Shown in pieces: positions 1-3,955 of a stretch of 47,606 nucleotides of DNA (position 1 is its first letter; each line of letters begins with the position of its first letter). The stretch covers positions 1 through 47,606 of the forward strand of contig JAJDZG010000148.1 in NCBI GenBank assembly GCA_022824765.1, in the 5' to 3' direction. The position numbers and the translations under genes were made by a program. The notes below the pieces were generated by a model, which was not told where the DNA came from, searched no databases, and worked only from the letters and a program-made list of their open reading frames with translations. This stretch comes from Dehalococcoidia bacterium. GTDB taxonomy: Bacteria; Chloroflexota; Dehalococcoidia; Bin125.

Positions 1-377
1 CCCTCGGCGGTGGCCCAGAACTTGGCGCTGATCTGGTCGATCAGGTCGATGAGTTCCTGGCCCTTGGCGACGTCGTTGGTCTTCTTGGCTTCGCCGGCGA
101 CCTTGGTCGCGTTCCAGAGGAGCTCGTGGATTGACGCGTCAGCTTCGAGGTGGTGGGGCTTGAAGAAATCGGTCCAGAGGACCCAGAGGTGGTGCTTGAC
201 CTCTTCGGCGCGCTGCTCTTTGACGATCGTGCAGCGGGCCTTGAAGTCGTGGTCGTCGGAGTCGTTGTACTTCTCCATTGACTTGAGGACCGACATGGCT
301 TCGATCTTGGCCTGGGCGGGGTCGTAGACGCCGCAGGGCAGGTCGCAGTGGGCGGAAGCGGTTTCGAACAAGGACAT
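1..377 (-). CDS. sodN: Nickel superoxide dismutase (3' end cut by window edge)
   Basis: This protein disproportionates superoxide using a nickel centre. The reverse strand, which the ORF track does not list, reads MSLFETASA followed by HCDLPCGVYDPAQA. This is the diagnostic nickel-hook motif, in which the His1 amine and imidazole, Cys2 and Cys6 of the mature protein bind Ni. The nine residues before the His look like the propeptide that must be removed to expose His1. The start is ATG at 377, with GGAG six bases upstream; an in-frame ATG at 389 lacks a comparable site. About 116 mature residues are visible, close to the roughly 117 of the family, so only a few C-terminal residues lie off the window. 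It follows sodC by 43 bp on the same strand. The maturation protease SodX is not visible and could lie beyond the left edge. Confidence 0.95.
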   Translation of the reverse strand, partial: MSLFETASAHCDLPCGVYDPAQAKIEAMSVLKSMEKYNDSDDHDFKARCTIVKEQRAEEVKHHLWVLWTDFFKPHHLEADASIHELLWNATKVAGEAKKTNDVAKGQELIDLIDQISAKFWATAE

Positions 378-420
378 GCAGTGCTCCATCTGTGGTGCGG
401 TTGGTTCCGTTGAGAGTGTA

Positions 421-1173
421 CTAGCTGTCTGGGCTGTCGAGGACGATGACGCCGCAGGCGACGCGGCCGCCGGCGGCTGGGTCGGCTCCATAGCTGTCGG
501 GACCCTCGTGGACGATGATGACCGAGCCGTCGTCGTCGAAGAGGGTGGCGGTGCCGCTGCCCAGCGTCGCGTCGACCGTGTACTGGTCGGCGTTGGCGAC
601 GCCGTCGGCGTGCGCATAGATGTTGACGGTGTCGCCGGGGTGATGGCCGTCCTCATGGAGCACGCCGTGTCCGATGCTGGTGGGGTTGTAGTGACCGCCG
701 GCGGCGGTGAAGTCAGGGTCGCAGGAGCCGGTTTCGTGGATGTGGAAGCCGTGCCAGCCCTCGCTGAGGCCGGTGAGACGCGCCTGAATCAAGAGTCCGC
801 GGGGTCCTTGAGTGATGGTGACGGTTCCCATCTCGTCGCCGTTGGCGCCGTGCATCTGGGCGGTCGCGGTTTTGCCGACGGTGGCGCTGTCAACTTCGGC
901 GCCAGTCTCGATCGGGATTGTGGAGCTGGCGCGCCACTCGCCGGGGGTGGCGTCGGCGGCGAGGAAGCGCTGTGTGGGGCGGATCGTCTCGGCCCATTCG
1001 CCGTCGTGATGCTGTTGCAGGGCGACCTCGGTTCGGCCGTCGTCGGTGGCGCGGGCGAGGATGCGGACGTCGGCGTCGTCGGAGTGGCCGGAGCCTGAGA
1101 TGGCGGCGAGCGCGGCCGCGCCGATTGCGATGCCGAGTGCGGCGGCAATCACGATCTGGAGTCGTCGGGACAT
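421..1173 (-). CDS. sodC: Cu/Zn superoxide dismutase, exported or membrane-anchored
   Basis: This is a copper/zinc superoxide dismutase of 250 aa acting outside the cytoplasm. An N-terminal hydrophobic segment (about residues 5-27, no lipobox Cys) acts as signal or anchor. It is followed by about 80 residues that are not part of the catalytic fold. The SOD domain shows GFHIHETGSCDP (Cu ligands HxH and the first disulfide Cys), GGHYNP (bridging His), further His and a GD for the Zn site, IIVHEGPD (fourth Cu ligand), and RVACGV (second disulfide Cys). All metal ligands and the disulfide pair are therefore present. AGGTGAT lies five bases before the ATG. The gene sits 86 bp after an ABC-2 permease and 43 bp before the nickel SOD, so the two dismutases are probably co-transcribed. 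Confidence 0.95.
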   Translation of the reverse strand: MSRRLQIVIAAALGIAIGAAALAAISGSGHSDDADVRILARATDDGRTEVALQQHHDGEWAETIRPTQRFLAADATPGEWRASSTIPIETGAEVDSATVGKTATAQMHGANGDEMGTVTITQGPRGLLIQARLTGLSEGWHGFHIHETGSCDPDFTAAGGHYNPTSIGHGVLHEDGHHPGDTVNIYAHADGVANADQYTVDATLGSGTATLFDDDGSVIIVHEGPDSYGADPAAGGRVACGVIVLDSPDS

Positions 1174-1259
1174 GGGATCACCTCACTGGCTATCGCTGGG
1201 CGCGTGTTCGCTGGTGCAATGTTACCGAGATCGAGGTGAGTTGCTGCGGAGCAGCCGGG

Positions 1260-2147
1260 TCAGTCGGCGCGGGTGCGGGCTCGGAGGGCGAGGGCGGCGA
1301 TGGTCATGGTGAAGGCGCTGAATCCGGCGAGTGAGACGAAGGCCCAGTGCAGTCCTGGCGGGTCGTCCTGGACTGGGCGGCCATCGGCGCCGATTACGGG
1401 GATGCCGTTCTCCAGCACGAGCCAGCCGTAGTCGTGGATGACGAGTTGGCGCATGCCTTCCATGATGTAGGTGACCGGGTTGACGGTGGCGATCCAGCGC
1501 AGCCAATCGTCGAAGATCGCGAGGGGCGCGAAGGCTGGGGCCATGAACAGCAGGGGGAAGAACAAGAGGAAGCCGGCCTGTGCGGCTTGCGCGTTGCCGG
1601 TGCGCATGGCGATGAAGATGCCAATCCCGCTGTAGGCGCCGCCGAAGAGTCCGGCGATGATCAGAATGACAATTGCTCCGCCGACACCGGCGGCCATGCC
1701 GGAGCCGGCGATCAGCGCGGCGATGAGCATGATGGTGGCGAAGAAGACGGCGCGGACTGCGTCGGCCCAGACGCGTCCGATGATCAGCGCCCAACGGGAG
1801 GCTGGGGTCAGGAGCAGTTTGTCGAAGTAGCCGCGCTCCATGTCGAGGACGATTGCGATGCCGGACGCTGAGGACGATCCGGCGACTGCTTGGAGCACGG
1901 CGACGGGCAGCTGGAAGGCGAGATAGTTTTCGACGCCAAAGCCGCGGTCTGAGAAGTTGGCGATGGCGCCGGTGGAGACTGCGAGGAAGAAGAGCGGGAT
2001 GAAGATGTTGGTGACTTCGACGCCGGGCTGGCGCAGCGACTCGCGGATGGCGCGGCCGGCGAGGAAGCGCGCATCGGCGAGGACGCGCAGGATCCCCGCT
2101 TCCTGGGAGGCGGAGCTGGGCAGCTGGGGCGCTTCCCGGACGCTCAT
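1260..2147 (-). CDS. ABC-2 type transporter permease (DrrB-like)
   Basis: This is the membrane subunit of an ABC-2 exporter, 295 aa. After about 45 cytoplasmic residues it shows the usual run of six hydrophobic segments. One glycine/alanine-rich segment lies near the middle (around GMAAGVGGAIVILIIAGLFGG), and a terminal helix ends in an Arg-rich tail. The ABC-2 hallmark region around ERGYFDKLLLTPASRW, just after the second or third helix, is typical of daunorubicin-resistance DrrB-type and NodJ-type permeases. Its start codon overlaps the stop of the ATPase gene by four bases (ATGA), so the two are translationally coupled. The substrate cannot be told from sequence; drug or lipid export is usual for the family. 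Confidence 0.88.
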   Translation of the reverse strand: MSVREAPQLPSSASQEAGILRVLADARFLAGRAIRESLRQPGVEVTNIFIPLFFLAVSTGAIANFSDRGFGVENYLAFQLPVAVLQAVAGSSSASGIAIVLDMERGYFDKLLLTPASRWALIIGRVWADAVRAVFFATIMLIAALIAGSGMAAGVGGAIVILIIAGLFGGAYSGIGIFIAMRTGNAQAAQAGFLLFFPLLFMAPAFAPLAIFDDWLRWIATVNPVTYIMEGMRQLVIHDYGWLVLENGIPVIGADGRPVQDDPPGLHWAFVSLAGFSAFTMTIAALALRARTRAD

Positions 2148-3211
2148 GCTGAGGCTCCTGGCTGGCCGGATTGGGCAGGGTCGCCTGGCTCGATGCGGTG
2201 ACCGGTGGCGCGGAAGAACACATCGTCGAGCGTTGCGCGGGCGAGGCGCAGGTTGCTGAACGGGAGTGATTCGTCGTCGAGAGAGCGCACGACGCGGGCG
2301 AGTGTCTCATGGCCGTTCTTGGTGTAGACGGCGACGCCCTCGTTGAAGTCCCAGCTGGCGTCCTCGACATTGGGGATCTGGATGAGGGTGTTGACGGCGC
2401 GTTGCTGGATTGGTTCGTCGCCCTCGACCTGGACGTAGATCACGTCGTTGGAGACGGTTGCCTTGAGCTCGTCGGGCGTGCCTTGCTGGACGATTTCGCC
2501 GGCGTCGAGGATCGCGATCTCGTCGCAGAGCAGGTCGGCTTCGTCCAGATACTGGGTGGTCAGGAAGAAGGTCACGCCGTCGACACGGTTGAGATGCTGG
2601 ACGTAGTCCCACACAGCTTGGCGGCTGACTGGGTCGAGGCCGGTCGTGGGCTCGTCCAGGAAGATGATCGATGGCGAATGGACCAAGGCTGAGGCGAGGT
2701 CGAGGCGTCGCTGCATGCCGCCGGAGTAGCCGCCGATTCGACGGTCGGCGTCTTCGGTGAGGTCGACGACGTCGAGCAGTTCAGCGACGCGCGACTCGAT
2801 TTGGTCGCGGGGGATGTTGTAGAGCCGGGACTGGAGTCTGAGCAGCTCGCGGCCGGTTTGCAGAATGTCGAGCCCGGCGTCTTGCAGCGCGACGCCGATC
2901 GAGCGTCGAATCTCGCGGTCGTCGGCGTAGATGTCGTGACCGGCGACTCTGGCGGAGCCCGATGTGGGCCGCAGGAGCGTGGTCAGCATGCGGACCGTGG
3001 TGGACTTGCCGCTGCCGTTCTGGCCGAGGAACCCGAAGATCTGACCTGGGCGCACGCGTAGATCGATGCCGTTGACGGCGTGGATGTCGCCGAAGTGCTT
3101 GACCAGTCCGTGCGCCTCGATGGCGGGCGCAGCGTCGCGATCATGTTGAGGCGCGGGAGCGGCGAGTCCGTCAAGCAGGCGTTCGCTGATGCTCGGAGTT
3201 TGAGTCGACAT
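2144..3211 (-). CDS. ABC transporter ATP-binding protein (DrrA-like)
   Basis: This is the ATPase subunit of the ABC-2 exporter, 355 aa. It shows Walker A GQNGSGKS, a Q-loop, the signature YSGGM, Walker B IIFLDEP with the catalytic Glu, the D-loop TGLDP, and a C-terminal DrrA-type extension after about residue 250. That extension includes LRLARATLDDVFFRATG, a sequence shared by DrrA/CcmA-like exporters. It lies immediately upstream of its permease with a 4-bp overlap. No Shine-Dalgarno sequence precedes the ATG; instead TACGCT lies 7 nt before it, which suggests a leaderless or near-leaderless transcript. A perfect 10-bp direct repeat lies 72-94 bp upstream. Confidence 0.93.
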   Translation of the reverse strand: MSTQTPSISERLLDGLAAPAPQHDRDAAPAIEAHGLVKHFGDIHAVNGIDLRVRPGQIFGFLGQNGSGKSTTVRMLTTLLRPTSGSARVAGHDIYADDREIRRSIGVALQDAGLDILQTGRELLRLQSRLYNIPRDQIESRVAELLDVVDLTEDADRRIGGYSGGMQRRLDLASALVHSPSIIFLDEPTTGLDPVSRQAVWDYVQHLNRVDGVTFFLTTQYLDEADLLCDEIAILDAGEIVQQGTPDELKATVSNDVIYVQVEGDEPIQQRAVNTLIQIPNVEDASWDFNEGVAVYTKNGHETLARVVRSLDDESLPFSNLRLARATLDDVFFRATGHRIEPGDPAQSGQPGASA

Positions 3212-3738: not shown

Positions 3739-3754
3739 GGTGGTTTGTCCTTTC

Positions 3755-3955
3755 GTTGGGGGGGAGCCCCCCTCTGCCTTCGGCATCTCCCCCCAGAGGG
3801 GGGAGAGGGAAATGGGGTTCGGCATCTCCCCCCAGAGGGGGGAGAGAGTAAATGGGGTTCGGCATCTTCCCCCAGAGGGGAGAGGGAAAATGGGGTTCGG
3901 CATCTTCCCCCAGAGGGGGAGTGGAGTTCGGCAAGTCCCCCTCCCGGGGACGCGG
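3755..3955. repeat. Tandem GC-rich hairpin repeat, about 4.5 units of 38-40 bp
   Basis: Each unit begins TTCGGCATCT and contains an almost perfect palindrome (CTCCCCCC-AGA-GGGGGGAG) followed by an A-rich link and TGGGG. Units start near 3779, 3818, 3858 and 3896, with a decayed fifth at 3927. A lead-in GGGGAGCCCCCCTC precedes the first unit. The tract fills the 222-bp gap between the thiolase-like and DUF35 genes, and each unit can fold into a strong stem-loop in the transcript. The same architecture recurs at 33130-33272. Confidence 0.9.

Follow-up and report, generated by a model that had tools for sequence, protein, structure and literature searches.

Cu/Zn and nickel superoxide dismutase genes side by side in one genus of Dehalococcoidia-type Chloroflexota

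The locus and its two enzymes

The window, i.e., the whole stretch of DNA analysed (47,606 bp), is the entire contig C50 of a metagenome-assembled genome (MAG; G000) of 2.35 Mb in 171 contigs that is 92% complete. Bin names hint at a possible sponge habitat. On the minus strand near base 1, it carries a DrrA-like ABC transporter ATPase gene (2144..3211; TIGR01188, 334.6 bits against a cut-off of 312.45), a DrrB-like ABC-2 type permease gene assigned by profiles (1260..2147) and conserved in the genus as the upstream neighbour, sodC (421..1173), encoding an export-type Cu/Zn superoxide dismutase (SOD) of 250 aa, and sodN (1..377), encoding a nickel SOD. As both SOD genes lie on the minus strand, transcription runs from sodC to sodN, toward base 1. 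The first-pass annotation had placed them 43 bp apart on one strand, and the spacer (378..420, minus strand), which starts with TACACTCT directly past the sodC TAG, agrees with this. A -10-like element, TAACAT (1219..1224, minus strand), found with a pattern chosen after inspection, lies 51 nt ahead of the sodC ATG.

SodN scored 135.5 bits against Pfam Sod_Ni (PF09055, cut-off 25) and 130.7 bits against NCBIfam TIGR02753 (cut-off 90), and SodC scored 115.9 bits against Pfam Sod_Cu (PF00080, cut-off 28.9); Sod_Ni and Sod_Cu scores this large are not chance. The mature SodN aligns end to end with the Streptomyces NiSOD 1q0d, and its HCxxPCGxY hook is intact, with His1, Cys2, Cys6, and Tyr9 present. 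The full nickel hook described earlier behind a 9-residue propeptide was confirmed, since MSLFETASA (351..377) is followed by HCDLPCGVY (324..350), which holds the His1, Cys2, and Cys6 ligands of the mature protein. Nickel binding and dismutase activity are predicted for the protein. The start codon (ATG, 375-377) was chosen via relatives, whose sodN genes retain both this ATG and a GGAG-type ribosome-binding-like site (384..387 in the window, minus strand, 6 nt ahead of the ATG). A 13-residue propeptide beginning at an upstream ATG was rejected, as that ATG is missing in relatives. The genus SodN has Glu17 and Arg47 in the second sphere, as in Streptomyces, where family neighbours have Ala17 and His47, and residue 62 is Phe. 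Across the pair-bearing genomes, SodN is 95-98% identical at the protein level, which argues for strong selection, and about 90-98% identical at the DNA level. No export signal was seen in SodN.

The 3' end of sodN is truncated because the contig ends. The end of contig C41 is identical to the window over 141 bases (1..141) and supplies the SodN C-terminus, ...EGPGAGVYAQ, plus the stop codon; a second Sod_Ni match, on C41, was rejected as an extra sodN copy because it is this 141-bp contig overlap. Downstream of the completed sodN, C41 carries a convergent tRNA-Arg(TCT) gene and then an opposite-strand gene. The C50-C41 join is sound, as a close relative (L026) holds sodN, tRNA-Arg, and the next gene in the same order, unbroken on a single contig.

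In an alignment with SOD1-type and YojM chains, SodC has the copper ligands (four His), the zinc ligands (three His and one Asp), and the active-site Arg, and an Arg/Cys near its C-terminus is conserved; its scores against the NCBIfam SodC equivalogs are under their cut-offs. SodC and all its relatives begin with basic residues that lead into an extended hydrophobic segment, by which SodC is predicted to be exported or membrane-anchored; no lipobox cysteine was seen. Ahead of the SOD domain lies an N-terminal module of ~50 residues (about residues 36-87; window 913-1068; VRILAR..GRTEVALQ...RFLAAD...GEWRASS), which has no Pfam match, is present in all SodC of the genus, and is absent from the other loci scanned. 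The window SodC also carries a C-terminal PDS extension. SodC identity drops to 61% among the pair-bearing genomes, and the genus forms one clade (100/100) in the SodC tree within the class sample.

Distribution, protease, and ancestry

Of the 15 genus genomes, 14 have sodC adjacent to sodN. The remaining one, G002, has no sodC match at all, and the same is true of G015 of the sister genus. When gene positions were read in 294 genomes of the class and 400 of the phylum, none of those outside the genus that hold both genes has them adjacent, and the closest spacing, seen in G243 and G402, is about 20-22 kb within a single contig. The first-pass annotation had not recognised the pairing as a standard arrangement, which is borne out by its absence from every other sampled class or phylum genome with both genes; the conservation of the sodC-sodN order in related genomes, which it had raised, holds across the genus. 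A literature report of such a pair was not found in a search that covered few subscription journals. A survey published in 2021 and covering 15,899 genomes reported Chloroflexi to be without sodC (PMC8346466); the gene was present here in 37 of the 294 class genomes and 48 of the 400 phylum genomes, which documents sodC in Chloroflexota against that statement.

Apart from SodC and SodN, no SOD was found in the genome. No Fe/Mn SOD (Sod_Fe_C) was matched in 20 genomes of the family, against 12 of 14 control genomes. With 92% completeness, a SOD may have been missed in this MAG alone, but the family-wide absence argues against it. The lineage is one in which Fe/Mn SOD went undetected and all SODs seen were nickel or Cu/Zn enzymes.

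The maturation protease had been expected as possibly the next gene off the window. Inspection of the sequence to the left showed that tRNA-Arg follows sodN, so the next gene is not sodX; the SodX-like gene lies elsewhere, on contig C81. TIGR02754 gave one credible gene in the genome, and because its 59.2 bits are below the cut-off of 63.25 it is called SodX-like. The product has 113 aa and contains the S26-type Ser (GDSMSPTL) and Lys (LIKR) motifs, and it is predicted to mature SodN. The gene sits between an FmdB-like gene and groEL, an order shared by the 14 genus genomes (of 15) with a SodX-like gene and by G015; these genomes likewise retain both catalytic motifs (Ser, GDSMSPTL; Lys, IKR). 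The usual place of sodX is beside sodN, though this is not obligatory: in a class-wide sample of 40 sodN loci, 35 have it beside sodN inside the fetched region. In the family members G018 and G019, sodX adjoins a different sodN, and in G019, it also lies directly before groEL. The FmdB-like zinc-ribbon protein encoded upstream of the sodX-like gene (L003:1153-1458; L064-L077) has a conserved His-rich tail, GHGHDHGHSHDD, which could bind nickel.

The drrA-drrB-sodN order occurs without sodC in G002 (L036) and G015 (L037), which is most simply explained by an insertion of sodC into the drrB-sodN interval. In the SodN tree, the genus, G002, and G015 group with Acidimicrobiia (support 99/97) and with Streptomyces (100/99) and stand apart from the family neighbours; a SodN clade with these neighbours was rejected (AU p 2.9e-6), and the second-sphere residues at positions 17 and 47 fit the tree. 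The sodN of the genus was thus apparently acquired from an actinobacterial source. The SodX tree favours vertical descent, joining the genus to G018 and G019 (support 94/76), but a SodX clade with Acidimicrobiia was not rejected (AU p 0.33), which means that SodX may have come with SodN. The groEL linkage is stronger evidence than the SodX tree that SodX stayed, and we lean to that reading; the direction of the gene movements at the locus is proposed on these grounds.

The sodC-sodN junction and its transcription

Two types of junction were recognised in the pair-bearing genomes. Type A, found in the window, L024, L025, L026, and L030, is exactly 43 bp long; SodC ends in PDS, and the TAG stop is followed by the spacer start given above. 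Type B, found in nine genomes, has a spacer of 150-271 bp and an earlier SodC end, and a conserved promoter-like element, TTGCCC-17-TAGCCT, lies directly ahead of sodN (GTTGCCC...CTCGATAGCCTCA(A/G)ACTG). Its conservation in nine relatives suggests that sodN has its own promoter there. A near-identical element precedes sodN in the sodC-less G002, and the element therefore predates sodC there.

The promoter-like motif of the relatives' sodN is absent from the window's genome in a search with up to 3 mismatches, and there is no terminator-like or promoter-like match within the window's 43-bp gap. A gap of this length without a terminator-like match is compatible with a single sodC-sodN transcript, and the sodC promoter probably accounts for at least some of the sodN transcription in type-A genomes. 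The type-A spacer opens with TACACT, however, and as this hexamer is -10-like and conserved, sodN may still have a promoter in type A. Ahead of sodC, TANNNT occurs 38-65 nt from the start codon in 13 of 14 genomes, compared with a mean of 3.5 and a maximum of 9 of 14 in shuffles, for a pattern chosen after inspection. The promoter function of the junction elements and the co-transcription of sodC and sodN are accordingly given here as predictions. The single transcription unit proposed for the pair earlier is thus sustained in part: the window's gap fits it, whereas the promoter-like element before sodN in nine relatives speaks against it there.

The two types are distributed patchily, requiring three changes on the SodC tree and four on the drrB tree. 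Since sister genomes differ in junction type, the junction has moved or has arisen more than once. A transferred tract around the type-A junction was sought by identity along sodC and sodN, the latter being too uniform to delimit one, and no conserved RNA structure was found in the 43-bp spacer (z-scores +0.7, -1.1, +0.4, and +0.7).

Separately, G+C-rich inverted repeats (CCCTCTCCCCCCGCGC..GCGGGGGGAGATGCCG) are scattered between genes of the genus, including type-B spacers (e.g., L027:5827-6009) and the window at about 3750-3950; they may represent a small mobile element or one of REP type.

A proposed two-enzyme locus and known systems

We consider it probable that these genes form a two-enzyme superoxide-defence locus confined to one Dehalococcoidia-type Chloroflexota genus. 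SodC would remove superoxide outside the cytoplasm with copper and zinc, while the SodN precursor would lose its 9-residue propeptide to the SodX-like protease encoded beside groEL on C81, exposing His1 and allowing the cytoplasmic SodN to bind nickel via His1, Cys2, and Cys6. The genus and one sister genus would have gained an actinobacterial-type SodN beside the ABC-transporter pair, in place of the family's sodX-adjacent sodN, with the SodX-like gene remaining at its groEL-linked site; sodC would have entered later, upstream of sodN and next to the transporter pair. Most members of the genus would still have the promoter-like element that belongs to sodN. In the window and four relatives, a shorter junction of 43 bp would have taken its place, so that joint transcription of the two SOD genes is more likely there. 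The earlier idea that one unit covers two compartments finds agreement in an export-type SodC beside a SodN without an export signal, and only partial agreement as regards the single unit.

It is possible, with a chance that we put clearly below even, that the adjacency is incidental and that two independently promoted SOD genes share no regulation or function beyond being SODs. Such an arrangement would fit the element before sodN in nine relatives and the sodC-less G002, the -10-like element that 13 of 14 genomes carry ahead of sodC, and the two relatives that hold sodN in the same place without sodC. It sits less well with the retention of the pair in 14 of 15 genomes despite SodC identity as low as 61%, and with five genomes that have exactly 43 bp and no sodN element, a junction that apparently spread across lineages. 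A locus working through SodC alone, with SodN left unmatured and no true SodX in the genome, is very improbable; although the SodX-like gene scores under the TIGR02754 cut-off, it recurs, with its Ser (GDSMSPTL) and Lys (IKR) motifs intact, in G015 and all but one of the 15 genus genomes, and the 95-98% identity of SodN points the same way.

As to ancestry, we tentatively favour, at not quite even chances, a hybrid pair in which the native SodN was displaced by one of actinobacterial type, the groEL-linked SodX was kept and adapted to the new precursor, sodN became coupled to sodC so that a single locus supplies both SODs found in the genome, and the 43-bp junction spread between lineages by recombination. 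Joint acquisition of SodN and SodX from an Acidimicrobiia-like donor, with later separation and no hybrid pair, seems unlikely: the AU test leaves a SodX clade with Acidimicrobiia standing (p 0.33), and the presumed donors have sodX beside sodN in 23 of 24 cases, but the SodX tree puts the genus with G018 and G019 (94/76), and the position before groEL, as in G019, is a site unlikely to have been hit twice.

Both enzymes are ordinary members of known families, and it is the lineage-restricted arrangement that is new. Relative to known sodN loci, the novelty lies in a sodC neighbour instead of sodX, together with the likely hybrid ancestry. The sodN-sodX loci of Streptomyces and others (e.g., SCO5254-SCO5255; PMC3919588) share with the present one the hook HCDLPCGVY, Glu17, Arg47, and a propeptide to be cut off by a SodX peptidase, but here sodC, not sodX, adjoins sodN, and residue 62 is Phe where Streptomyces has Tyr. 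They differ further in regulation genes, as no Fur-family regulator was matched in G000 (13 of 14 control genomes match), and hence no Nur; this could reflect MAG incompleteness or a real lack. In the sodT-sodX-sodN clusters of marine picocyanobacteria, sodN co-localises with protease and nickel transporter genes (PMC4284471; PMC10119275). NiSOD is a main cytoplasmic SOD there, as probably here, whereas in the present genus sodN adjoins the gene of a Cu/Zn SOD and lies near an ABC-2 transporter pair. At about 55-66% identity, the SodN of Acidimicrobiia loci (L038-L061) are the nearest beyond the genus and its sister, but these loci have a divergent sodX next door and no sodC within the fetched flanks, and position 5 of their hook (HCDLFCG) is occupied by Phe in 23 of 24 loci and by Met in the remaining one, where all other SodN examined have Pro. 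The SodC shares with bacterial periplasmic SodC an SOD domain that bears the Cu and Zn ligands, as well as the conserved Arg/Cys near the C-terminus, and departs from it in the extra ~50-residue N-terminal module, which is genus-specific among the loci searched.

The arrangement shows that sodN can be transferred or retained independently of the gene for its protease, and it offers natural substrate-protease pairs, with SodN from one lineage and SodX from another, for probing SodX recognition. Among most native Dehalococcoidia SodN (L083-L122, L006-L008), Ala17 and His47 stand in place of Glu17 and Arg47, which suggests a second way in which the axial His1 ligand may be supported.
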